Shown: piece by piece, positions 2,589 through 25,026 of the stretch
Numbering within the stretch: the first letter of the stretch is position 1
Layout: the number at the start of each line of letters is the position of its first letter
DNA from: an uncultured Verrucomicrobiales bacterium
GTDB taxonomy: Bacteria > Verrucomicrobiota > Verrucomicrobiia > Verrucomicrobiales > DEV007
NCBI GenBank assembly: GCA_938082635.1
Contig: CALLLI010000254.1
Coordinates: 1-34,850, forward strand
Direction of reading: 5' to 3'
DNA: 34,850 nucleotides
Notes under the pieces: model-generated
Told to the model about the DNA's origin: nothing
Seen by the model: the letters and a program-made list of their open reading frames with translations, nothing else
The model's database searches: none
Translations under genes and position numbers: made by a program

Positions 2589-5500
2589 CTAAGGTGCGGT
2601 TACTTTGATCTGAGGACGCGTGTAAGCGCGGTGTTGAACGACAAGTTCGATATCGACAAGGTCTTCGATCCTGAACTGGTTTGCCTCAATGTTTAAGAGA
2701 AGCCCAGTCGTCGCCACACTGAGTTCTTTGAAGTCGTTGATTTGAAACCCACTATTAGATTGGATTTCAGCCTCGACAGCCGGCGTCTCGGCGGACTGCG
2801 TGCTGAATATATACTCTAAACTCGTAGCGTCCTTGACACCAAACGTTTCGAAAACAAACACAGCTGGATTCGTATTCTGGAAGTAGCGAAACGGCGTGGG
2901 TACAAACTCCCCACTGTAGTCTCTGCGGTCGATTTGCAAACCGGCAGACTCATCACTTGCGATTTTTGCATCGTTGGCATTGACCAATTCCACCGGTGAT
3001 CGATCTGGCAGCGGAGGCACACGCGTGCGGAAGAACGTGTTCCCGCTATAGATCATGTTTCCATTGATACCGTTGTTTCCTGGCAAAGAAGGCACGGCAT
3101 TTCCATTCACGAACGACCCGGCCTTAAAGACGAAATGCACGGCAAGCCAATCGATCTTATCTCGATACAAACCCGAGCTGATACTAATGAGCTGATCGGG
3201 ATTGGAGGGTGAATACGTGTAGGTCGGTCCCGCGAAGAGTTGTCCAATTTCAAGCTGTGATGTATCCACGGGAATACTGATCGCAGGATTAAAGCCGCCT
3301 CCTGGTGCAGCGCTCACAGCCAGCCCGCTCAGAAGTGCATGAAAGTGGGCTTCCTTGGTGATAGGATTCCCATCCGAGTCCGTGCGAAGACCATCATCAG
3401 GAGGGAAGGCGCCAAACTCTTTGTTGGTATCAGCGGGATTGGGCGTGAGGACCCGATCGCGTAGAGAGACCGTCGCGGTGTCCTGGCGAAGTGTGCCTGG
3501 AGAGGTAAGACGGTCCTCATTGAAGAAGGCCATCGCTTGAAAAATGGCGTCCAACTCTAGCGCATTGCGCGCGCTGAAGATGGTACCGATATCCACGGCA
3601 AGACGGATTTGGGGATTCGCGTAGGCGAAGCGCTCCTGCCATTTGTACTCGAGTGCCCGTGCCGTCATGAATAACCACCACTGAGCTCTACGGAACGAAG
3701 CGTCAGCAATGAGAAGAGCGGCCTCTGCGCGTTGAAAGTGAATGGGATCCGCGAAGTAAGCACTGGCAAGATCGGCCCGCTTCGCGCGGAAGTTGTCCTC
3801 AATTCGGGCCACCTCACGAATCAACGCCGCGCGGTCAGCTATCGCTTGGGCGATGGCGGAAATGTTACTCTTTGTTTGAAGGTCTGTGGCCAGTACTTCA
3901 CGCTGAAGAGCTCCGATCTCCATGATGGACTGCTGGACGGTGAGGGCCTGATCCGCAAGAGCCAGCTTGGTCTGATATTGAATCGCCGCCTTATCAATCC
4001 CCTTCTCAGAGGTCACTGCAAACCCTGCCGCCGTACCTTGGGCAATGCCATTGATCCCACCAGCCGTCGCAATGGTAGCTCCGGGACCAAAGGCCAACGG
4101 ACTAGGTGTTAACCCAGCAATAGCCGCCGCTGAGTCATACGCCACCTGGGCCGCCGCTGCAAGTCCTTGGGATATCGCTAAGTCTCCATAAATGTCGTCC
4201 GTCTTGGTCAAGTAGGAGGACTGCGCGTTCTTGATCGAATCCTTAATCCCATTGGCAAGACCTACCGCAGCTTGAGCATTCCTCACATCGGTCTCCGCTT
4301 TGCTGAGCACTTGCTTGAGACCGCTATTCTGCTGAATGAGTCCGGCGATCGTCCGATCTGCGGTCGCGAGATCACTTCCAATGACGTCCGACTTCGGCTT
4401 CGTTCCGTCCCAACCATTCACGCCATCGTCCCATGGAAAACCCGTGATCTCTTCGAATCGATCTCTCAACGCAATCTCGAGGTCTAGCAAATCACCAGTA
4501 GTCTGGCTAACCCCGGTGAGGAACGTCGCATAAGATTGGATAGCGCCTCCTCCAGACCCGGGATTATTTGGATCCCCCAAACGGTCTAACGCTACTTGAA
4601 GCGCCCCTGTCGGAGCTTTGATGCGGTTCTTGAGAATGTCATAGGAATCGAATAGTTCCGCCCCCGAACCATCTGTCTCTCCCGGCTGCTTCTCCACAAT
4701 CAGAAGAAAGTCCGGATCCAATCCGAGCATGTTTGCTGTTCCATTGACAAAGTTCCGCACGCCGATCGATTCGCTCAAGGCAGTCGAAACTAAGGTAAAC
4801 GCAGAACGGACACCTGTGGAGTCGAGTGAAGTGGAATCGAAATCGGTATCTGCAAAGAGCCCCTTGAGCTGAAGGTAGAGGTTCGTGTCTGGTCCCTGAA
4901 CTTCAGCGATCAACTGTCGCGCTTCCGTGATGTCCCCTGAGGCGCTTCTCATGCCAAGAAGCCTTGCTAGGTCTGTTTTGAACTGAACGAGTTGCCCAAG
5001 AATCGTGAGGAAGGTGCGGTAGTCTTTGTAGCCAGCAAAGACCACTTCCGTCTCCGAGGAGAGTTCGATGATCTGCTCGACAGCACCACTCCCGGTGGAC
5101 GCCGTTCCCGTCCCGTCATTCCCTGCGCTGAAGGTGACGGTGAAATCGCCGGGATCTATCATTTCGACCATGGCCTTGATCTCACTGATCTTGGTAAAAC
5201 CGGTCACTACTGGGATGGAGAGCGTGTCCGCGCCCGCAGAAGGCAAGGTGCCTCCTTCCGACATCACCACTCGGAAATTGTCTGGGAATGCGGGAAGTGT
5301 CGTGGTGATGGTGAAATCGTTATTGGCACCCGGTAACATGATGGTTGCGACCCCACCGACTGCCGTGAAGATACGGGGCGTTGCCGAGGCATAGCCCAGC
5401 TCCGTAGCGGACTGGCTGCGGCCAGGCACACGACTGACAAAGATAAAGTTGCCATAGGGCCTTCCCTGAAAGTCGCTCACGAAATCCCCAGGCTCTACCC

Positions 5501-6314
5501 CGGCCATTTCAAAACAAAGAAGCTCAGAATACCACGCGGCCGCTTGGCCAACGACTTGAATGAGTTCACGATAGAGCGCAATTTCTCGATCAATGATAAA
5601 TTCGTTGGCTGAAGAATCTAACCCCAAGCGAATGGTTGCGAGTTTCGCTAGGCGTTTGTTGACGAACTGCATCTCGGCGACGGCAAGATCATAATAGATA
5701 TCGAGCAGCGCGAACTGAAGTTCACGGTTCAATGGGGCCATGGAGAGAGCATCACGAAGGACATCAATTTGATCCATGGCGGCCATGCGCTCATCGTCAC
5801 CATACCAAGGATTGTCATCATCACTGGTGTCCTGGAACGTCTCCGCAAAGAGATTCAGAATCACCGGATTGCCATCATCATCTGCGCCGCCCTCGCCATA
5901 CATCAACCAGCGATAACGGAACGCTCCTCCTGTGGCGGGATCCGTGAGTTCACTTCTGGTCGCAGTGACGCCCGTAGCAGTCCTGTAGCCCGCAGGATAG
6001 AGCACATCGTAGACTCCAGTTCCGCCGTTATTGCGTAACACCTCCTCCGCAAACGTGCTATTCGGCGAAGAAATCTGCGTGACGGCAAAGGGATGTCCAT
6101 ACCTGGACTGAGAAAGGTAAGTCGCGTCTGCGCCGCTACCAAACGTCGGTCCACCGGTCAGCCTATCAATGTTTCCTTGAAGCACCATCACGCCTCCCCC
6201 CTCAAGTGGGCCGGAAGCATTCTCGAAGTCCGGACGCGCGACCTTAGGTGGCACAGCAAAGGCACTCACCATGAGAAACAGGCTGGCCAACGGAAGGAGA
6301 AATGTAGACTTCAT
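2589..6314 (-). CDS. Large secreted protein of unknown function (about 1241 residues)
   Basis: I do not recognise a named family. I chose the ATG at 6314 because it gives a classic signal peptide (MKSTFLLPLASLFLMVSAFA); an ATG at 6335, one base past the previous gene's stop, would add seven residues. The N-terminal third is mixed and Gly/Asp rich. It includes YGEGGADDDGNP, DDDNPWYGDD and a segment resembling 'MAPLNRELQFALLDIYYDLAVAEM'-type helical repeats (trimmed). The middle, about residues 570-900, is Ala/Gln-rich and predicted helical or coiled coil (AEAALLIADASFRRAQWW and ARALEYKWQERF). The C-terminal part looks beta-rich. There is no obvious catalytic motif, LPXTG or sorting domain. It lies between the TSP3/Calx-beta gene and the S74 gene on the same strand, so a shared surface or extracellular role is plausible. 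That role is inference. Confidence 0.8.
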   Translation of the reverse strand: MKSTFLLPLASLFLMVSAFAVPPKVARPDFENASGPLEGGGVMVLQGNIDRLTGGPTFGSGADATYLSQSRYGHPFAVTQISSPNSTFAEEVLRNNGGTGVYDVLYPAGYRTATGVTATRSELTDPATGGAFRYRWLMYGEGGADDDGNPVILNLFAETFQDTSDDDNPWYGDDERMAAMDQIDVLRDALSMAPLNRELQFALLDIYYDLAVAEMQFVNKRLAKLATIRLGLDSSANEFIIDREIALYRELIQVVGQAAAWYSELLCFEMAGVEPGDFVSDFQGRPYGNFIFVSRVPGRSQSATELGYASATPRIFTAVGGVATIMLPGANNDFTITTTLPAFPDNFRVVMSEGGTLPSAGADTLSIPVVTGFTKISEIKAMVEMIDPGDFTVTFSAGNDGTGTASTGSGAVEQIIELSSETEVVFAGYKDYRTFLTILGQLVQFKTDLARLLGMRSASGDITEARQLIAEVQGPDTNLYLQLKGLFADTDFDSTSLDSTGVRSAFTLVSTALSESIGVRNFVNGTANMLGLDPDFLLIVEKQPGETDGSGAELFDSYDILKNRIKAPTGALQVALDRLGDPNNPGSGGGAIQSYATFLTGVSQTTGDLLDLEIALRDRFEEITGFPWDDGVNGWDGTKPKSDVIGSDLATADRTIAGLIQQNSGLKQVLSKAETDVRNAQAAVGLANGIKDSIKNAQSSYLTKTDDIYGDLAISQGLAAAAQVAYDSAAAIAGLTPSPLAFGPGATIATAGGINGIAQGTAAGFAVTSEKGIDKAAIQYQTKLALADQALTVQQSIMEIGALQREVLATDLQTKSNISAIAQAIADRAALIREVARIEDNFRAKRADLASAYFADPIHFQRAEAALLIADASFRRAQWWLFMTARALEYKWQERFAYANPQIRLAVDIGTIFSARNALELDAIFQAMAFFNEDRLTSPGTLRQDTATVSLRDRVLTPNPADTNKEFGAFPPDDGLRTDSDGNPITKEAHFHALLSGLAVSAAPGGGFNPAISIPVDTSQLEIGQLFAGPTYTYSPSNPDQLISISSGLYRDKIDWLAVHFVFKAGSFVNGNAVPSLPGNNGINGNMIYSGNTFFRTRVPPLPDRSPVELVNANDAKIASDESAGLQIDRRDYSGEFVPTPFRYFQNTNPAVFVFETFGVKDATSLEYIFSTQSAETPAVEAEIQSNSGFQINDFKELSVATTGLLLNIEANQFRIEDLVDIELVVQHRAYTRPQIKVTAP

Positions 6315-6336
6315 GTTATGCTCGGCGAGAATCATA

Positions 6337-9132: not shown

Positions 9133-11642
<2,510 letters not shown>

Positions 11643-11646
<4 letters not shown>

Positions 11647-12764
11647 TCTTCGGTCGAGTTGGTGGATCCCTCGTCAAGTGACTGCAGGGCGTTACTAATA
11701 TCAGGCTCTGGGAGGCTTTTCAACCGGTCCCGGATAATTTGAGAGCGCATTTCGTCTCGCTCCTGTGTAGGAAGCTTACGATCGGCGCGGATTTGTAAAT
11801 GAGCGGGCTGAATCTCCATCAGAAGGGATTCCAAGACGACTGTAAACTCAGCCGGGAAGAACTTGAGATCCACTCCTAGTCGGAGCATGGACGTGAGGTT
11901 GAGCGCCTCTTTTGAAGGCATGACGTGCGCATGACGGAGGAGAGCGAAGGCGCGACCGACCTGATCACACAAGGTTGTCGTATTGTCGCTCAAAAGCTTC
12001 TTCCGTGCATTCTTCTCGTGATTGACGATCTGCTCGATGACTTTTTGGAGGCGAGCGATGATCTCGAGTTCCCGATCACCGAGGGTCGTTTGGTTCGAGA
12101 TCTGAAAGAGATTTCCAAGGGCCTCGGTCCCCTCCCCATAGAGTCCGCGTACCGCGAGCCCGATCTTGTTCACCGCCTGAATCACCTGATTCACCTGATC
12201 GCTCAGCATAAGCGCGGGTAGGTGTAGCATTGCCGAAGCTCTCAGACCTGTACCAAGATTCGTTGGACAGGCCGTGAGAAATCCTAGCTGTTTATCGAAG
12301 GCAAACTCCAGTGATTGCTCCAATTCGGTATCAATCTCATTGAGGATCTGATAGCTTTCACGCAGCGCTAAACCAGGCTGAATCGACTGCATACGCAGGT
12401 GATCCTCCTCATTGATCATGATGGAAATGCTCTGAGCTTGATTCATCACGGCAGCACTTCCGGCAGCGCGTGCCGCGTGCTCCCTGCTGATGAGATGACG
12501 CTCGACCAAGGCCTGCTTCTGAATCGCCGTCAGCTTATTGAGATGCCGGGAGAAGGCGTTCTCCAACTGGGGCAAGCTCTCGACCATCGGCTGAATGACA
12601 CGTAGAGTGGCCTCGTTCTCTTGCTTTCGCCCCCACCCCGGGAAGGCATGATCCACTAGATTCCGAGCAAGACGGATCCGACTCGTGACCACGATATCTC
12701 CGTGGGAAGTTCCCTGGCGCATCCAATCCGCAGGTGACTCTAAAAGGGTATCGAAACGAATCAT
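11643..12764 (-). CDS. mcsB: Protein arginine kinase McsB
   Basis: This 373-residue phosphagen-kinase-fold enzyme phosphorylates arginine side chains in proteins, using ATP. The diagnostic motifs are present: VTSRIRLARN (26-35), NEEDHLR (118-124), ACPTNLGTGLRAS with Cys166 aligned with the catalytic-loop cysteine of Bacillus McsB, and VRGLYGEGTEALGN (205-218). Near the C-terminus RDEMRS (336-341) fits the RDxxRA phosphoarginine-sensing motif of McsB except for Ser in place of Ala. This separates it from creatine or arginine metabolite kinases, which lack that domain. It follows mcsA by two bases and overlaps clpC by four. There is no CtsR gene, the classical McsB substrate, so the kinase may act mainly as a degradation tagger here. 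Confidence 0.95.
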
Positions 12765-12766
12765 CC

Positions 12767-13360
12767 TTAAGATACGACGTTCGCTGGAGGATTGGCCGCT
12801 TGATCCGCAGCGAGCTGCGCCATTTCGGCTTCCAATTTCAGGATTTGGTCTCGCAGACTCGCAGCTTTTTCAAACGCTTCACGAGTGACCGCGTCCTCAA
12901 GCTGCATCCGCAGGTTGTCCAGCTCGTCCCTCTGCTCTACCACCGCTTGATGTCGCTTTGGGACTTTCCCGATGTGATGAGTGCCCTTGTGCATCGCCTT
13001 GAGAAGAGAATCCAATCCTGCGCCGAAGATTTGATAACATTTCGAGCATCCAAGCCGTCCAGCCTTCTTGAACTGAGCGTGCGTAAACCCGCAAGCCTGG
13101 CAGGACGTGTTCTCATCAAGGTCGGTAAACTCGGCTGCCACTGCGGGTGCGGAAACGGGCAAATCGTCAGTTTCTAGCTCCAAATCTTCTTTCTCCTCTT
13201 CACCCACGCCCAGAAGCAAATCAGCGAGAGCAAAGCCAGTGGGATCCGTCACGCCCTTGGCTTGTGCACACGTTTCACACAAATTAACTTTCTGCATTTG
13301 TCCATCGACGATTTGCGTCAGAAAGACGCTCGCCTTCTCATCGCAGAGATCACAAGTCAT
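12767..13360 (-). CDS. mcsA: McsA, zinc-binding activator of McsB, with UVR domain
   Basis: The protein has 197 residues. Two zinc-finger-like pairs are visible: Cys3/Cys6 with Cys28/Cys31 (MTCDLC...NLCETC), and Cys87/Cys90 with Cys105/Cys108 (CQAC...CSKC). A UVR motif (LEDAVTREAFEKAASLRDQI) lies near residues 151-170. This is the known McsA layout. McsA stimulates McsB kinase activity and links it to ClpC. An acidic insert (GEEEKEDLELETDD) lies between the two zinc modules. Its start is 13 bases after the ilvE-like stop. The name is supported by adjacency to mcsB as well as by the motifs. Confidence 0.92.
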   Translation of the reverse strand: MTCDLCDEKASVFLTQIVDGQMQKVNLCETCAQAKGVTDPTGFALADLLLGVGEEEKEDLELETDDLPVSAPAVAAEFTDLDENTSCQACGFTHAQFKKAGRLGCSKCYQIFGAGLDSLLKAMHKGTHHIGKVPKRHQAVVEQRDELDNLRMQLEDAVTREAFEKAASLRDQILKLEAEMAQLAADQAANPPANVVS

Positions 13361-13373
13361 ACCTGTAAAGATG

Positions 13374-14246
13374 CTACGTATAAACCGGGGTGGCGCAAGA
13401 AATGGTGGAATCTTTGAATAATTTCATGCATTCAGCCGTGATTGGGCCCGGTTTTCCATCACCAATGAGTCTCCCATCCAATTCTACTCCAGGGATGACC
13501 TCCGCGGCTGTGCCCGTGAGAAAGCATTCATCTGCTGTGTATATTTCATATCGCGTGAACATTTCCTCGTGGACGGGACGGCCCAAACCCTCGGCGATAT
13601 CGAAGATCGCTCCCCGAGTGATTCCAGGCAAAGCACCAGCCGAGACGGGCGGCGTCGAAATGCGCCCATTCTTGATCACGAAGATGTTATCACCCGTGCA
13701 CTCGGCCACGTAGCCCTGCTCATTCAGCATGAGCCCCTCATCCCCACCCGCGTTGATGGCTTCCACCTTGGCCATCACGTTGTTGAGGTAGTTGAGCGAT
13801 TTCACAGAGGGACTCAGCGCGGCGGGCGCCGGGCGGCGAGTCGAACAGGTCGCCATCTTCAAGCCATGGGTATATTTTTCCTCAGGGTAAAGCTGGATCT
13901 TGGAAGCGATGATGATGACAGAGGCCTTCTCGCACAGAAAGGGGTTCAACCCCAAGCCACCCACCCCACGAGTGACGACCAAGCGGATGTAACCATCGTG
14001 CAGCTCATTCTCTCGGATCGTTGCCAGCGTCGCCTCGATCATCTCGTCCTTACTGACGCCGATGTTGAGGTGAATGGCCTTCGCCGAATCATAGAGCCTA
14101 GCAATGTGCTCGGGCAGCTTATAGACGCCTCCACCGTAGAAACGGATGCCCTCAAACACTCCATCTCCGTAGAGCAATCCATGATCGAACACGGAGATCT
14201 TGGCGTCCGCTTCACTTGAGAATGTTCCGTCGATGTAGATCTGCAT
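13374..14246 (-). CDS. ilvE: Class IV (branched-chain amino acid type) aminotransferase
   Basis: This 290-residue fold-type IV PLP enzyme is predicted to transaminate branched-chain amino acids and their 2-oxo acids. The start region FDHGLLYGDGVFEGIRFY (20-37) is typical. The PLP lysine is Lys149 in SVKSLNYLNN. AECTGDNIFVIKNGRISTPP and LPGITRGAIFDIAEG are the cofactor and active-site loops. Short class IV enzymes include IlvE, D-amino-acid aminotransferase and aminodeoxychorismate lyase. The SLNYLNNV segment favours IlvE, but substrate choice is not proven. It sits between the lolD-like gene (12 bases upstream) and mcsA (13 bases downstream), so it is probably transcribed with the stress module, an unexpected partner. 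Confidence 0.85.
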   Translation of the reverse strand: MQIYIDGTFSSEADAKISVFDHGLLYGDGVFEGIRFYGGGVYKLPEHIARLYDSAKAIHLNIGVSKDEMIEATLATIRENELHDGYIRLVVTRGVGGLGLNPFLCEKASVIIIASKIQLYPEEKYTHGLKMATCSTRRPAPAALSPSVKSLNYLNNVMAKVEAINAGGDEGLMLNEQGYVAECTGDNIFVIKNGRISTPPVSAGALPGITRGAIFDIAEGLGRPVHEEMFTRYEIYTADECFLTGTAAEVIPGVELDGRLIGDGKPGPITAECMKLFKDSTISCATPVYT

Positions 14247-14258
14247 AAAAGCGATTAG

Positions 14259-14963
14259 TTAGGCCATGGGGCTACCAGTAGCCCCGGCAAGCTGCCCGTC
14301 CGCAAGGTAAAGGATACGGTCCCCAAGCGAAGCAAGACGCGCATCATGGGTCACGATGGCCAAGGTCTTGCCCTCCTCGGTTGCCAGACTCAACAACAAC
14401 TCCATGATTCCTTGTCCTGCTTTGGAATCCAAGTTGCCGGTGGGCTCGTCAGCAAAGATAATCTCGGGATCGTTGATCAGCGCACGAGCGATCGCCACAC
14501 GCTGCTGTTCGCCTCCAGACAGCTCGGTCGGCAAGTGACCCATCCGATGATTCAATCCCACACGATGCAGCAGTGCTACCGCATCTTCATGGCCATCTTC
14601 CTTAGCGATCAAGGCCGGGAGCATAACATTCTCCAAGGCCGTGAGCTCAGGCAGGAGGTAGTAGTTTTGAAAGATGTAACCCATCATTTCATTACGAATC
14701 TGGGCCTGCAATTTCTTACTGCTTCCATACAAACTGTGCCCGCGGATGAGCACGCTCCCTTGATTCGGCTCTTCCAAACCCGCCAAAGTGTAGAGAAGCG
14801 TCGTCTTTCCCGCGCCTGAAGCACCGCAAAGAAACAACGTCTCGCCACGATTCACCTCCACAGAAACACCTTTCAGTACATGGATGTCCTGCTTGCCCAC
14901 ATGGTAGATGCGGTGCAAATCGCGGGCGCTTAACGCAGCGTTGTCTTGTAACACACTCTTCAA
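14259..14963 (-). CDS. lolD: ABC transporter ATP-binding protein, LolD/MacB type
   Basis: This 234-residue ATPase has Walker A GASGAGKTT (47-55), a Q-loop in FQNYYLLPELTALENV, the signature LSGGEQQRVAIARAL, Walker B IIFADEPTGNLDS and the switch His in IVTHDARLAS. The PTGNLDS and YYLLPELTALENV segments are typical of the LolD/MacB/FtsE subgroup. In LolCDE it powers release of lipoproteins from the inner membrane. No LolC/E permease gene lies beside it, so the partner must be elsewhere and the symbol is a best fit only. The assigned start is TTG; a GTG three codons later is possible. It is the first gene of a six-gene run reaching to 8154. Confidence 0.8.
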   Translation of the reverse strand: MKSVLQDNAALSARDLHRIYHVGKQDIHVLKGVSVEVNRGETLFLCGASGAGKTTLLYTLAGLEEPNQGSVLIRGHSLYGSSKKLQAQIRNEMMGYIFQNYYLLPELTALENVMLPALIAKEDGHEDAVALLHRVGLNHRMGHLPTELSGGEQQRVAIARALINDPEIIFADEPTGNLDSKAGQGIMELLLSLATEEGKTLAIVTHDARLASLGDRILYLADGQLAGATGSPMA

Positions 14964-15125
14964 TCTGGGCAGAGATAAGCTCGAAGTAGGACGGACGCGA
15001 GCGTCAATTGCTCATCTCTTCTCGAAAGAATCCTTTGCCCGAGGCACCTCCCTCTCTAAGCCCGTGGCCAGCCATCCAAATGAATCGTCTTTCCCTCCCC
15101 TCATCCTCTCACGCAGGAAAGAACA

Positions 15126-15176
15126 GAGGCCAAGAATCTGAGAACACTTAAAGTGTCCTAACAGAGTCTTGGCCTC
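15126..15176 (-). terminator. Long hairpin downstream of the AP2-H1 gene
   Basis: Ten-base perfect arms GAGGCCAAGA (15126-15135) and TCTTGGCCTC (15167-15176) enclose a second helix of four pairs and a central ACACTT/AAGTGT palindrome, giving one extended 51-base stem. It lies 58 bases after the stop of the AP2-H1 gene in the direction of transcription. It is probably its terminator or a 3'-stabilising structure. There is no strong U-run, so factor-assisted termination or an RNA-processing role is also possible. Confidence 0.5.
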
Positions 15177-15234
15177 ATACGACTGCGCTCGGCTCAAATA
15201 GTAAATCGAACCGTTACTGCTAGTGTCGAGCTAT

Positions 15235-15849
15235 TTACTTCTTCTTTCTAGCAGCCTTCTTGGCAACTTTCTTAGGAGCCTTCTTGGTGACCTTTTTAGC
15301 GACTTTCTTAGGAGCCTTCTTGGTGACCTTTTTAGCAACTTTCTTAGGAGCCTTCTTGGTGACCTTCTTGGTGACCTTCTTGGTGACCTTCTTGGTGACT
15401 TTTTTAGGAGACTTCTTGGCACCGCCATCACTCTTGGTGAGAGCTTTCTTGGCCATTTCAAGAGCCTCCTTACTACCATAGCGACTGATCGAGAACTTAG
15501 CAGTGCGACGCCCAGCAGAGTCGTCCCATGCTGCTTGCCAGTACTCATAAACCTTCTTACCACCTGGGGCCTTGGCCACCACGTGAGTCACGCCAGTCAC
15601 TCCACTCTGAAGAATTTTCTTTCGACGTGAATTGATGGCGTCTTGCTTGTACTGTGGCAACTTCTTCACGACTTCATCGCGATAAGCTTTTGCTGCAGAA
15701 AGCGCCTTGTTCTTACCACCAGATGCTTTGTCAGGGAAGTAACGCTGGTGTAGTGTACTACTGTGTGTGATCCGGACGTAGAAGCCATGATTCTTTTTAT
15801 CAGGCTGATCAATCCGTGAGATGCCGTAGTTGGATCGGGTCTTAGTCAT
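15235..15849 (-). CDS. Two AP2-like domains fused to a histone-H1-like basic tail; probable DNA-binding nucleoid protein
   Basis: The protein has 204 residues. Residues about 7-64 (YGISRIDQP, GFYVRI, KALSAAKAYRDEV) look like one AP2/ERF-type domain: three short strands and a helix. Residues about 82-138 (SGVTGVTHV, YEYWQAAWDD, FSISRYGSKEALEMAKKAL) look like a second. Bacterial AP2 domains are DNA-binding modules best known from HNH endonucleases, but no HNH motif is present here. Residues 145-204 are a lysine-rich tail of KK-separated VT, AP and VA dipeptides ending AARKKK, as in eukaryotic H1 and bacterial HctB-like proteins. It has a strong Shine-Dalgarno and hairpins on both sides, so it is likely a well-expressed single gene. 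A role in DNA packaging or global regulation is inference. Confidence 0.75.
   Translation of the reverse strand: MTKTRSNYGISRIDQPDKKNHGFYVRITHSSTLHQRYFPDKASGGKNKALSAAKAYRDEVVKKLPQYKQDAINSRRKKILQSGVTGVTHVVAKAPGGKKVYEYWQAAWDDSAGRRTAKFSISRYGSKEALEMAKKALTKSDGGAKKSPKKVTKKVTKKVTKKVTKKAPKKVAKKVTKKAPKKVAKKVTKKAPKKVAKKAARKKK
15265..15400 (-). repeat. 36-bp and 12-bp tandem repeats encoding the H1-like tail
   Basis: Two near-identical 36-base units lie at 15265-15300 and 15301-15336, with a third diverging after 28 bases from 15337. They encode the APKKVAKKVTKK pattern. Four 12-base units (TTCTTGGTGACC) at 15353-15400 encode the VTKK repeats. The units are nearly identical at DNA level, so tail length is likely to change by slippage or recombination between strains. 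Confidence 0.85.
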
Positions 15850-15856
15850 GCTATGT

Positions 15857-15863
15857 CTCCTTT
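15857..15863 (-). promoter_or_regulatory. Strong Shine-Dalgarno for the AP2-H1 gene
   Basis: On the minus strand AAAGGAG lies seven bases before the ATG at 15849. Most genes in this window lack such a clear site, so this one suggests efficient translation and fixes the start codon. Confidence 0.7.
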
Positions 15864-15980
15864 ATTTCAGGTTGGGTTGGGTAGGTTAATGGCTATCACG
15901 ACGTTGAATCACAACCTAGCGACAGCCACCACATGGGCGGATGATGATAGGATACCCGCCCCGAATCAATAGAAATATCA

Positions 15981-15992
15981 GGCGACTTCGCC
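15981..15992 (-). terminator. Possible terminator after trmL
   Basis: GGCGACTTCGCC can form a five-pair stem with a tight loop. In minus-strand RNA it is followed by TGATATTTCTATT, moderately U-rich. It lies about 32 bases after the trmL stop and could end the rplU-rpmA-trmL transcript. The stem is short, so confidence is low. Confidence 0.35.
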
Positions 15993-16023
15993 CGAACTTT
16001 AGTTAGACTGTAAACTTGCGTGG

Positions 16024-16476
16024 TCAATGCTCACAAGTTTGTCGAAGCGCCTCATACAATACTATACCAACACTGACTGAAAGATTGAGACTTCTAACGT
16101 TCTGAGTAGGAATTGTCCTACACGAATCAGCATTCTCCTTGAGCAGTGATTCGGGCAAACCTCTCGTCTCACTTCCAAAGACAAGGTAATCGTCAGCCCC
16201 GTAAGTCGCTGACCAATGTGTCGTCTGGGTCTTCGTCGTGAAGTAATGGAACTTCCCTCTTCCATTTGAAGCCGCCTGCAAGGCATCAAGAGATGGCCAG
16301 ATATGGCAGTCGACATCTTTCCAATAATCGAGCCCCGCCCGTTTCAATTGCTTGTTGTCGAGGCTAAACCCTAAAGGCTCCACCAAATGCAATCGTGTGC
16401 CAGTCGCTAAGCAGAGACGCCCCACATTTCCGGTATTAGGAGGAATCTCTGGCGTTACTAGTACAACATGAAACAT
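16024..16476 (-). CDS. trmL: tRNA (cytidine(34)-2'-O)-methyltransferase, SPOUT family
   Basis: I chose the ATG at 16476, giving 150 residues that begin MFHVVLVTPEIPPNTGNVGR, the normal start of TrmL; upstream in-frame ATGs at 16527 and 16488 add sequence not seen in the family. The SAM-binding trefoil-knot motifs are VFGSETRGLPESLL and RSLNLSVSVGIVLYEALRQ. TrmL 2'-O-methylates the wobble base of certain tRNA-Leu species. The gene follows rpmA by about 75 bases and probably shares its transcript. Related SpoU-family enzymes are longer, and the length and start motif fit TrmL better. Confidence 0.88.
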   Translation of the reverse strand: MFHVVLVTPEIPPNTGNVGRLCLATGTRLHLVEPLGFSLDNKQLKRAGLDYWKDVDCHIWPSLDALQAASNGRGKFHYFTTKTQTTHWSATYGADDYLVFGSETRGLPESLLKENADSCRTIPTQNVRSLNLSVSVGIVLYEALRQTCEH

Positions 16477-16551
16477 CCCTGTCTCCATAGCTGGAGGACA
16501 GGGATGCGCAAATTCTGAAGCTCCCAAGAGAGCGTCTAATTCCTGAAATGC

Positions 16552-21279: not shown

Positions 21280-24200
21280 CTACTCTTGATCAACCAGTTC
21301 AACCCGAACTCTATAAAAAGTCTGGCCTCCTTCACGTCGCTCAATTCTTCCACTGTTCGGGTCGTAGCCAGAGGTGTTCCAGGTCCGGAGATCGGCCGAC
21401 TCTTCGACGACAGGCCTTACATTCTTCTCGCCCACTTGATCAAAGGCATCTGACTGCAAACTCACAGAATCCGAATCTAGGGCCACGCTGACGACCAAGT
21501 CACGCTTCGAAGTCACCTCCAAAGGAGCGGTGCCATAGAGGAACTCAATCACATTGCTCGCGCCATCTTGATCCGCATCCCCTTCTAAAGGAACCATGGT
21601 CCAATCAGGTTCACCCGTCGGATTGAAGTGCGCAGTAGCCCACTCGGCATAATCCACCAAGTTCCCACTTGGACGGAATTGCCACATAGCCTCGTCGCTC
21701 AGCTCGCCCACGAAGTCCTTACCAGACGCCCGAACATAGTGCAGGCGTGTCTTATCAGCCAACGAGAAGCCCTCACCTTGAGCCGCCACAGCAAACACAG
21801 GCTCCACCGAACTCAGACCAGAGAGATCCAAGGGTTCGACCCCATAGCTACCCACAGCCAACCAAGCGAAGGTGCCTGCGTCATTCACATCGATCTGGCT
21901 CAAGTTCTGCGTGTAGACAGGTCCTGACAGAGCAATCTTGGTCACCTGATCACCACGCGCCACGCCGACCGAGCCGTCGTAGTCCATGAAGAGAAGCCCT
22001 TCGTGCGCCACGAGATTGCTTGGTGTGGACTCCAACTCGATGAATCCATCGCGCACCAGTGCAGCACTGTCGCCATCATTCTTCCAGGCCCACAAGAGCA
22101 ATCCAGGCTTCTTGTTCTCTTCGCCTGTCTTATAAATCTGCCCATTGAGGACCACCGTGCTCGTGTAACGTCCATCTAACACCGTCACTTCCGTCACGAG
22201 GTAAGCCTGAGTGCCGTCATAGACCGAAGCCTGCAGCACGCTATTCGACGACTCGAACCAAAGGCGCTGATCATTCTGAGAGTACTTAGGCGCCGTGGAA
22301 ATCAAAACCAAGCCGCCGCTATCACCGACCACGCCTTCAAGCATGCCCGGTAGACTCACCGCGTCACTGACCACTGGAATCGCAGGATCTGCAAAGCTCA
22401 GATCACGCAGATGATAGCGGCTTAAGTAGTTATTCCCCTCTTTCGTCTCAAGATAAGTCGTCCGCTTGTAGCTAAGCAGGAGACGCTCACCTTGGACAAC
22501 CATGGGCCCAAACTCAGCCTGATCCTTAGGATCGATCACGGTCGCCGAAGCAATGAACGGCTCAGCGGGATCATCGACATTCACGGCGAGAATGCTCACA
22601 CTGTCATAGTTCGAGTAACCACCCCAGTAGCTTCCACCACCACCCCAGGCAATCTCGACGTCAGCAACAATGCCCACGTCATCGAAGAACCAGCCACCCC
22701 AGTAACGATTGCTCACCACCTTCGGCCGCCACAGCAGGTGGCCATTGACGAGACTTCCTTCTGCGGTCGACAGACCACCATTCTGATAGCCGCCGCCAAG
22801 GTCATGGGTGACCGAACCTAACAACGTTGGCTCTGTGGGATCACTCACGTCGATCACGTCCGTAGCAAACTCGTTGTGGCGCACCCACTCAAAAACAGGC
22901 TCGGGCTTCCAATCCTCTGGCTCCTTCCCCTCGGGGAACGGCTTCTCTTCACCTGGAAGCTCAATCTTCTCATTCCACTGACGGTAGCGCCCCACATAAA
23001 GCTTGGTGCCATCTTGATAGAGACCAGCAACCCCACCCGGCTCCAGATAGAAATCAGACGCCACCGTATCGAAATCCTCTTTGCCCGTGATCCGCACTCG
23101 GGTCTTGATGTCACTCTGCCAGGACTGGCCATTCTCAATCTGCCACAGCGTGTCACCGACCTCCACCACGTGACCAACGTTCCACGCCAGAGCAACTTCA
23201 GTCAAAAGCTCCGGCTCATCGCGATCCGTCGCATCCACTACGATCATCTCCTGACCGGATATCGAAACGACCGTATCACCCACCGCAGTCGCCCGACGGC
23301 CTTGGACGTTATGTTCAATCGCACCGCGCACTTCTAGCCCATCATCACGCACGTCCACGATCTGCATTAGATTCTTATACTCATACCCATCCTGTGTCTT
23401 CACCCGCGTGGAAATAGGAAGTAGAAGTAGATCTCTGTCAGGCAGGTAACCCACAGCTTTCTCATCCCAGTTTGCCTCACTCCAAGAGCGACCTTCGCCA
23501 GGATACACGCGCTGTGTCAGGCTAGGCTTGCTCGGATCTGAGACGTCGAAAAGGGAGATGGCTACCCGATCCTCTTCGACGCCTACAGATAAGAGACGGT
23601 CGCCTTCTGGCACAAGATAGGTCGACCAACCTGGAATCTCCAACTCCCCGAGCGACTTCAAATTCTCTGGATCACTGAGATCGATAACAAAGAGCGGGTC
23701 CTTGCGAATCTCGACAAAGAACGTCACCACATACAGTCGATCCCCATCAAACCGCGTGGCATGAAGACGCTCTTGCGGCGCAAGAATAATCTCATCAAGT
23801 TTCTCAGCGTCGTCCCCAGAGAGATCGAAACTCTCCACATACGTCGTGAGATCGCGACGCCAAACATTCTTCTGGCTCACCGTAGTAAGAATATCATCCT
23901 TCACCCTGAGCTTGAATTTATCGGGCAAATTCGCCTTCAGCTCTACCGTATGAGCCACCTCCATGGAAGTCAGCGTGCGACTAATAGGGATGACGTTCAC
24001 CTTTGAACGTGTCTCTTCCAGCTCACTATCGTAATGCGAGGTCGTCACTAACAAATGATCTGGCGATGCCGTCACCACTGAATTCCAGAACCAACCATTC
24101 TGATCAACCAACTCTAGAGGTTCCAAGAGAGTTGGCGCACTCGGATCGGAGAAATTAATGCTGTTGACCTGCAAGCCCTGACGCCAGTATATCCCGCCCT

Positions 24201-25026
24201 CCTCGTCTTCCTTAGGTTGGTGAATCCGTGAGACCATGTAGAGACGGTTTCCAACGAGTCGACTTTCTAAGTAATCGCCATCGACAGCAACGCGATTCAC
24301 TACCTCCAGCGTATCGCCAGAGTGCTTCACCACAATCGCCTCGGTCTGTTGGACCGAACTGTAGGGCAAACGAAAGTCCCACAAACCATAGGCCGAATAA
24401 TTAACATAGTTAGCTAGCAGAAGAACATGTTCGTCATCGAGAACATACATTTGATCGCCCACAGCAGGCATGCGCAGCGTCGCCAGCTTTTGAGGACTGC
24501 TAGTCTCACTCAGGTCGAAGACTTGAAGCCCGCGTTGCTGATTGAAAAAATACAAAGTATCACCACGCCACTGCCAAAGATCCGATTCCTGCACGACATC
24601 AGGAGCCCCACCTTGCCCCCCACCATCATCACCTTCGGCCGCATCAAACGCAGCGAGAGGCCCACCACCACGGTTCGCTCCACTATTGTTGGAAGCCTGC
24701 TCAAACTTCGTGCTCCCCTGGTAAAAACTGTAGGGAAACGGATCCGTCATGGCCACTTCGGCCCGACAATCTTCTAACAAGACGTCGTCGGGAACACGCA
24801 ACTTGAGGAAGCCCTCATCACCCGCCAGGTGAGCCAAACTAAACACGGACCATTCCCCATCCTCGTCCTTCACTTGGAGCCGCGCTTGTCGCGTACCTTT
24901 GGCCAGATTCAGGAGAAACGCCCGATCTTCCATCAGAGGTTCAGCATCCGCCGGGTTAAAAGATTCTGCGCGGAGGCCGGCAAGGGAAAGGCCGGTCAGC
25001 AGTAAAGTAAGTAGGAATCGTTTCAT
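21280..25026 (-). CDS. Large secreted beta-propeller protein with C-terminal FYRV module
   Basis: The 1248-residue protein has a signal peptide (MKRFLLTLLLTGLSLAGLRA). Residues about 140-700 contain repeated blades such as VVQESDLWQWRGDTLYFFN, GLQVFDLSETSSPQKLATL, NSINFSDPSAPTLLEPLEL, LFVIDLSDPENLKSLGELE and VIDVSDPTEPTLLGSVTHD. These match the secreted beta-propeller family (Beta_propel type) distantly related to WD40. A Gly-rich stretch with GANRGGGPLAAF lies near 120-140. Towards the end are GDADQDGASNVIEFLYGT, a TSP3-like Asp-rich loop, and EESADLRTWNTSGYD with TFYRVRVEL, the module seen in two other secreted proteins here. No enzymatic motif is visible. It stands alone and converges with fetB. 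Confidence 0.85.
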   Translation of the reverse strand: MKRFLLTLLLTGLSLAGLRAESFNPADAEPLMEDRAFLLNLAKGTRQARLQVKDEDGEWSVFSLAHLAGDEGFLKLRVPDDVLLEDCRAEVAMTDPFPYSFYQGSTKFEQASNNSGANRGGGPLAAFDAAEGDDGGGQGGAPDVVQESDLWQWRGDTLYFFNQQRGLQVFDLSETSSPQKLATLRMPAVGDQMYVLDDEHVLLLANYVNYSAYGLWDFRLPYSSVQQTEAIVVKHSGDTLEVVNRVAVDGDYLESRLVGNRLYMVSRIHQPKEDEEGGIYWRQGLQVNSINFSDPSAPTLLEPLELVDQNGWFWNSVVTASPDHLLVTTSHYDSELEETRSKVNVIPISRTLTSMEVAHTVELKANLPDKFKLRVKDDILTTVSQKNVWRRDLTTYVESFDLSGDDAEKLDEIILAPQERLHATRFDGDRLYVVTFFVEIRKDPLFVIDLSDPENLKSLGELEIPGWSTYLVPEGDRLLSVGVEEDRVAISLFDVSDPSKPSLTQRVYPGEGRSWSEANWDEKAVGYLPDRDLLLLPISTRVKTQDGYEYKNLMQIVDVRDDGLEVRGAIEHNVQGRRATAVGDTVVSISGQEMIVVDATDRDEPELLTEVALAWNVGHVVEVGDTLWQIENGQSWQSDIKTRVRITGKEDFDTVASDFYLEPGGVAGLYQDGTKLYVGRYRQWNEKIELPGEEKPFPEGKEPEDWKPEPVFEWVRHNEFATDVIDVSDPTEPTLLGSVTHDLGGGYQNGGLSTAEGSLVNGHLLWRPKVVSNRYWGGWFFDDVGIVADVEIAWGGGGSYWGGYSNYDSVSILAVNVDDPAEPFIASATVIDPKDQAEFGPMVVQGERLLLSYKRTTYLETKEGNNYLSRYHLRDLSFADPAIPVVSDAVSLPGMLEGVVGDSGGLVLISTAPKYSQNDQRLWFESSNSVLQASVYDGTQAYLVTEVTVLDGRYTSTVVLNGQIYKTGEENKKPGLLLWAWKNDGDSAALVRDGFIELESTPSNLVAHEGLLFMDYDGSVGVARGDQVTKIALSGPVYTQNLSQIDVNDAGTFAWLAVGSYGVEPLDLSGLSSVEPVFAVAAQGEGFSLADKTRLHYVRASGKDFVGELSDEAMWQFRPSGNLVDYAEWATAHFNPTGEPDWTMVPLEGDADQDGASNVIEFLYGTAPLEVTSKRDLVVSVALDSDSVSLQSDAFDQVGEKNVRPVVEESADLRTWNTSGYDPNSGRIERREGGQTFYRVRVELVDQE

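Follow-up and report, generated by a model that had tools for sequence, protein, structure and literature searches.

What does a bacterial protein do that appears to carry two AP2-like segments followed by a lysine-rich, histone H1-like tail? The question is raised by a gene on the minus strand (15235..15849) of a 34,850-nucleotide stretch of contig CALLLI010000254.1 (assembly GCA_938082635.1, an uncultured Verrucomicrobiales bacterium), hereafter called the window. An initial annotation, made from the letters alone, had suggested a stand-alone AP2-AP2-H1 protein that would be abundant in the nucleoid. Our computational follow-up points to a probable role in packaging the chromosome or in regulation, for a protein whose modules are each known but are unusually combined. 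Its tail is an accessory and not a fixed part of the protein, and its family is widespread in this bacterial class.

Gene and predicted structure

The open reading frame (ORF) runs from an ATG at 15849 to a stop at 15235-15237 and encodes 204 residues (isoelectric point ~10.7), arranged as unit 1, linker helix, unit 2 and lysine-rich tail. It is a real gene under purifying selection, because core residues are kept while third codon positions diverge among genus-mates. Over the aligned core, 123 of 138 residues are identical in one genus-mate and 123 of 139 in another, against 51% and 48% identity at third codon positions, and the Nei-Gojobori method (NG86) gave dN 0.065 and dS 2.75 for one genus-mate pair. 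The ortholog in genus-mate G001 (L008, 267-608 and 3-263, minus strand; same locus as L037) is split by an in-frame stop and is either a pseudogene or an assembly error. An antisense ORF (15223-15630, plus strand) overlaps the window gene and was not treated as a gene.

An AlphaFold2 model was built from a 34-row alignment (A1) that sets the window protein beside its close relatives and has 42 invariant columns. Where the annotation had placed AP2-like segments (about residues 7-64 and 82-138), the model predicted two beta-beta-beta-alpha units, at about 7-62 and 86-140, each with the three-stranded sheet and single helix of the Pfam AP2 domain (PF00847). Unit 1 (15664..15831, on the minus strand like all features of the gene) has predicted strands at 7-13, 22-29 and 32-39 and a helix at 46-62. 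A predicted linker helix (66-81; 15607..15654) leads to unit 2 (15430..15594), with strands at 86-93, 100-110 and 113-120 and a helix at 126-140. The predicted local distance difference test score (pLDDT) was mostly 70-90 in the core and below 50 at residues 143-191 and 199-204, with a mean of 67.9 including the tail.

At the profile level, every one of the 34 rows of A1 matches Pfam AP2 at E <= 1, with 1.1e-8 as the best value. In a separate scan of the two units as isolated segments, covering 19 of these rows, all 19 gave a match for unit 2 (best 2.5e-8) and two did for unit 1 (best E 0.09). The AP2 profile match expected from the annotation was recovered for unit 2 of the window protein, under the cut-off, and unit 1 is AP2-like by its predicted fold, not by profile. 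A profile-profile comparison of the two units gave 17% probability over 15 columns, too little to establish a common origin. Single rows gave other weak Pfam matches; DUF1093, for example, reached 1.9e-4 at best and occurred in 3 of the 34 rows.

In the window protein, no HNH nuclease domain was listed by Pfam at E up to 10, no effector domain was found in Pfam, NCBIfam or PHROGs, and PHROGs gave no match. Two weak NCBIfam matches (E 0.18 and 0.54) were taken as chance, as were the 11 distinct sequences returned by a PDB sequence search with profile A1, which comprised designed alphaRep proteins and uteroglobin fusions. Searching annotated phages by tblastn gave no match at E <= 0.01. In BFVD, a single protein matched at E <= 0.001, the best viral structural match: S5VVH9, a 183-residue protein of Pseudomonas phage PaBG (E 1.2e-4).

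The tail (residues 143-204; 15238..15423) is predicted to be disordered. Its 62 residues include 31 lysines, one arginine and no aspartate or glutamate, giving a net charge of about +32, and the H1-like character proposed for it is borne out. Most of the tail is encoded by a 36-nucleotide tandem repeat (15255..15407; 4.2 copies, 87% match). It has the lysine-rich, low-complexity repeats free of acidic residues that define HC2-type composition, although the window protein gave no match to the HC2 profile (PF07382; cut-off 40 bits) at E up to 10. Tail length varies within the genus, from 62 residues in the window protein to 36 in one genus-mate (G002) and no tail of at least 20 residues in another (G003).

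Comparison with known proteins

We compared the predicted fold with known structures using Foldseek. The top two matches were to the tandem AP2 of Plasmodium SIP2 (PDB 6sy0), over about 140 columns; going by the title of the entry, this structure was solved with two SPE2 half-sites. SIP2 resembles the window protein in its two tandem AP2 units but is a eukaryotic transcription factor with 12-16% identity to it. Three further chains, which we take to be Toxoplasma mitoribosome AP2-like proteins (9hqv_Yn, 9i05_Xn and 9g6k_Lk), also align over both units. An excerpt of PMC11742926 describes such chains as ribosomal proteins with long extensions.

Chlamydial Hc2/HctB (PF07382) and AlgP are lysine-rich and H1-like, as is the window tail (for AlgP, PMC9239181). 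Hc2 length varies by lysine-rich pentamers, according to an excerpt of PMC2848022. This variation resembles that of the tail within the window genus. Tailed HU proteins such as Streptomyces HupS likewise join a folded DNA-binding part to a lysine-rich tail, but HupS has the HU fold, unlike the AP2-like fold predicted here. AP2-integrase domains were reportedly treated by Balaji in 2005.

Tails and nuclease domains among relatives

A tail was labelled where a basic stretch of at least 20 residues was present. By this label, 155 rows with a tandem pair divided into 12 C-tailed, 7 N-tailed, 4 HNH and 132 with none, and the basic tails stood at either end and on scattered branches of the tandem family. 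Within the window clade, 6 of 47 rows were tailed. Because the other 41 lack a tail, it is an accessory, and the AP2-AP2-H1 architecture of the annotation does not hold for most of the clade. The window genome itself holds two paralogs: C171, with 75% identity to the window protein and no tail, and C418, with a lysine/alanine-rich N-terminal tail ahead of its AP2 pair. C418 is the genome's only HC2 match at E <= 0.01 (38 bits in the genome search and 36.2 bits by hmmscan, with a cut-off of 40).

Tail presence was then placed on a quick maximum-likelihood tree of 142 columns, which has many open forks and includes neither the single-unit L131 and L136 nor any row covering fewer than 110 profile positions. 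Tail versus no tail required at least nine changes (HNH rows left out). Branches with a Shimodaira-Hasegawa-like approximate likelihood ratio test value of 95 or more force at least four changes for C-tails and at least two for N-tails, each against all other groups; gain and loss are not separable on this tree. A lysine rule (25% lysine over at least 30 residues) was passed by 15 of 155 tandem rows and by 0 of 947 other genes on 131 loci (Fisher p 9e-14, for rows that are related rather than independent and background genes that were called crudely). For background genes this reading took in only the first or last 160 residues; for tandem rows it covered everything outside the core between one stop and the next.

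Fusions of the tandem pair to HNH domains scored over the cut-off in four rows, L103 and L187 with PF01844 and L191 and L192 with PF13391. Among 10 proteins scanned, L103 (38.1 bits) and L187 (36.9 bits) also passed the Pfam AP2 cut-off. The window protein has the AP2 module in common with AP2-HNH endonucleases; relatives of its core carry HNH, whereas none was seen in the window protein. Fusion of the same module to HNH nucleases favours DNA as the target. As an observation in its own right, these four proteins, from two HNH nuclease families, are candidates for DNA-targeting nucleases.

Proposed function

On balance, we consider it fairly probable that the window protein is a DNA-binding nucleoid or regulatory protein whose accessory tail adds non-specific affinity and condensation. 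Three features, namely fold, HNH fusions and tail, are in keeping with nucleic-acid binding, and DNA contact is the likeliest role of the AP2-like units given the fold match to DNA-bound tandem AP2 and, again, the fusions. Both units would contact double-stranded DNA via their three-stranded sheets, and the linker helix would keep them a set step apart. The lysine-rich tail would contribute sequence-independent electrostatic affinity, leading to longer residence, bridging and DNA condensation, a role analogous to that proposed for H1-like tails in other nucleoid proteins. We would expect such a protein to be nucleoid-associated and to influence regulation broadly, and not to repress a single operator. 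It is in this conditional sense that we infer DNA binding, specificity, condensation and abundance of the window protein.

Several observations weigh against this explanation. The AlphaFold2 model has a predicted template modelling score of 0.40. The window protein matches Pfam AP2 in unit 2 only (E 0.0047, 17.6 bits, under the cut-off of 33.3), and its isolated unit 1 gave no match. The whole-pair root-mean-square deviation to SIP2 is 15-17 Å, so that unit placement differs or is poorly predicted, and matches of similar rank include the Toxoplasma mitoribosome chains, an unrelated LiCMS regulatory domain and double-stranded RNA-binding domains. The window genome has three HU-family genes, so condensation need not depend on the window protein. 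Tails are scarce in the clade, as counted above, and HC2 matches below the cut-off appeared in 2 of 14 control genomes, which makes the C418 match partly a matter of composition. The tail enrichment depends on a lysine rule chosen after the first result, as a looser first rule (lysine plus arginine, 20 residues) separated little, with 59 of 744 background genes and 20 of 155 tandem rows passing. We judge that most background genes passing the loose rule are arginine-rich frames or antisense ones; the tandem rows passing it number 20, against 19 labelled tails, because L187 passes the rule and is labelled HNH.

Codon usage adds to these points. The reference comprised 16 genes of the same genome for which high expression is expected (15 ribosomal proteins and elongation factor G, identified from their sequences), with a leave-one-out range of 0.69-0.81. 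Codon adaptation was 0.73 for the window core, 0.77 for the full gene, 0.72 for C171 and 0.64 for C418; 20 of the 21 other window genes lay at 0.57-0.72, and L27 at 0.74. The proposal of an abundant protein thus gains a codon usage within the ribosomal-protein range; it is countered by the lower values of two HU genes (0.67 and 0.63) and by a ribosome site that is unclear in most orthologs. Because these HU genes and L21 (0.61) score low, codon adaptation is a poor proxy for abundance and a weak hint at most.

Chromosomal place and alternative explanations

The genes around the AP2-like gene lie on one strand in the order rplU, rpmA, SpoU methylase, AP2-like gene, ATP-binding cassette (ABC) ATPase, class IV aminotransferase, UVR protein, guanido kinase and Clp ATPase. 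Upstream on the minus strand are ribosomal proteins L21 (16840..17199; PF00829) and L27 (16552..16812; PF01016) and the SpoU-family RNA methylase (16024..16527; PF00588, E 9e-30). Downstream, also on the minus strand, are the ABC transporter ATPase (14259..14963; PF00005), presumably LolD-like, and a block at 9133..14246 that is kept in several relatives and encodes the class IV aminotransferase, the UVR-motif protein, the ATP:guanido phosphotransferase-type kinase and the Clp ATPase. We take the last three to be McsA, McsB and ClpC.

Synteny was scored with the SpoU, L27 and ABC genes at 45% identity or more, the identity limit and distances having been chosen after a first look at the neighbourhood. 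In the window clade, L27 or SpoU was found upstream in 42 of 47 rows and the ABC gene downstream in 37; at least one flank was kept in 44 and both in 35, with misses being partly missing data, as many loci span only 1.5 kb per side. The three rows with neither flank are L110, the C171 paralog and L034, in which a contig end cuts the downstream side and the 1.5 kb upstream are without these genes.

A sister family (f3) has the same ABC and aminotransferase genes downstream in 9 of 10 rows. Ribosomal genes were not found upstream within the stretches covered, so it is the downstream side that supports a shared place. The f3 protein has a single AP2-like unit of the unit-1 type; past residue 80 (counted from the Met of MYG), 28-49 lysine/alanine-rich residues follow in 7 of 10 rows, 21 in one and none in two. 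We read this tail as standing where unit 2 stands elsewhere. The tandem form, being more widely spread, would be older than the single-unit form of f3.

The ribosomal-protein and RNA-methylase genes next door also count against a nucleoid role. Together with the mitoribosome fold matches, they make an RNA- or ribosome-binding protein, whose AP2-like units and basic tail would hold ribosomal RNA as in the Toxoplasma mitoribosome, a serious rival, if an unlikely one. However, the HNH fusions point to DNA, and these neighbours are absent from all 108 other tandem rows over the stretches covered, often only 1.5-3 kb per side. The hairpin upstream of the gene, described below, speaks weakly in the same direction.

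We think it quite unlikely that the protein is a sequence-specific transcription factor whose two units read one composite site, the tail merely raising affinity. The two half-sites in the title of the SIP2 entry and the strong conservation of the core would suit such a factor, but tails at either end suggest general affinity. A single-site factor is made less likely by the lack of a detected effector domain and of an operator signal: a simple k-mer count upstream of orthologs gave no operator-like motif; what it returned were k-mers rich in A and a short leader common to the genus. That the protein is a leftover of an AP2-HNH endonuclease, with its nuclease part lost and no role of its own, is very improbable. 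HNH fusions of the same core exist and bacterial AP2 domains are best known from HNH proteins, but purifying selection, the conserved place in the clade and the rarity of HNH forms (4 of 155 tandem rows) all argue otherwise.

Signals around the gene

A GGAG ribosome-binding site (15857..15860, minus strand), read from the sequence, is kept in three genus-mates. The strong ribosome site claimed for the gene is clear here and in the genus, but beyond a few other orthologs it does not extend further, clear sites being absent from most of 35 upstream stretches. Flanking hairpins had also been proposed. The downstream one (15126..15176, minus strand), a possible terminator, is strong: positions 15110-15180 have a folding energy of -32.2 kcal/mol (z -6.5), equalled by 0 of 200 shuffles. 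The terminator-like hairpin in the gap between the SpoU methylase gene and the AP2-like gene (15978..15995, minus strand) is weaker (15970-16000; z -3.3, 1 of 200 shuffles as good) and hints at a separate transcription unit for the AP2-like gene. Shuffles of 14900-16100 average 1.3 terminator-like sites, so the two seen there are no excess; a sigma-70-like promoter was looked for without success. Elsewhere in the window, two ORFs (2589-6335 and 21280-25026, minus strand) encode exactly 1248 residues each, which we regard as coincidence because their BLASTP similarity was not significant.

Distribution and significance of the family

The window gene is its genome's only Pfam AP2 match at E <= 0.01, and barely so (E 0.00976), with the paralogs missing that limit; a match occurred in 1 of 14 control genomes. 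At E <= 0.001, family matches were found in 79 of 95 relatives, in 94 of 384 genomes sampled from the class (profile A1) and in 62 of 387 sampled from the phylum (profile A4), where only G674 was listed outside the class. Among contigs with close relatives, the eight that are named carry the labels Verrucomicrobiales, Verrucomicrobiaceae, Verrucomicrobiia or Verrucomicrobia. The G674 protein (L231) is a 412-residue frame with a tandem AP2-like pair and about 250 further residues.

The modules themselves are already known: AP2-like units, tandem AP2, H1-like tails and AP2-HNH. No bacterial protein combining AP2 with an H1-like part was among the matches listed in the open-licence PMC literature. 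Those matches likewise contained neither the combination of modules and its appearance on more than one branch nor a single unit with a tail at the equivalent position. A broader proposal, which we hold to be less likely than not, is that a chromatin-protein family peculiar to the class has been built around a tandem AP2-like reader. H1-like tails, the second unit and nucleases might then be interchangeable add-ons, by which lineages tune one conserved protein between site reading, condensation and cutting. If true, this would provide a bacterial counterpart of eukaryotic AP2 chromatin factors, connect an AP2-like module with a tail of H1 type and identify what is likely to be a core part of the nucleoid in a poorly studied bacterial group. 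Nature would also have supplied a graded set of forms (bare tandem, C-tailed, N-tailed, one unit with a tail, nuclease fusion) for gauging what a histone-like tail does to a single nucleic-acid-binding core.

Separately, genomes of genus f2/g19, for example G187 and G214, encode up to seven short single-AP2-like proteins each, in frames mostly of 90-150 residues.
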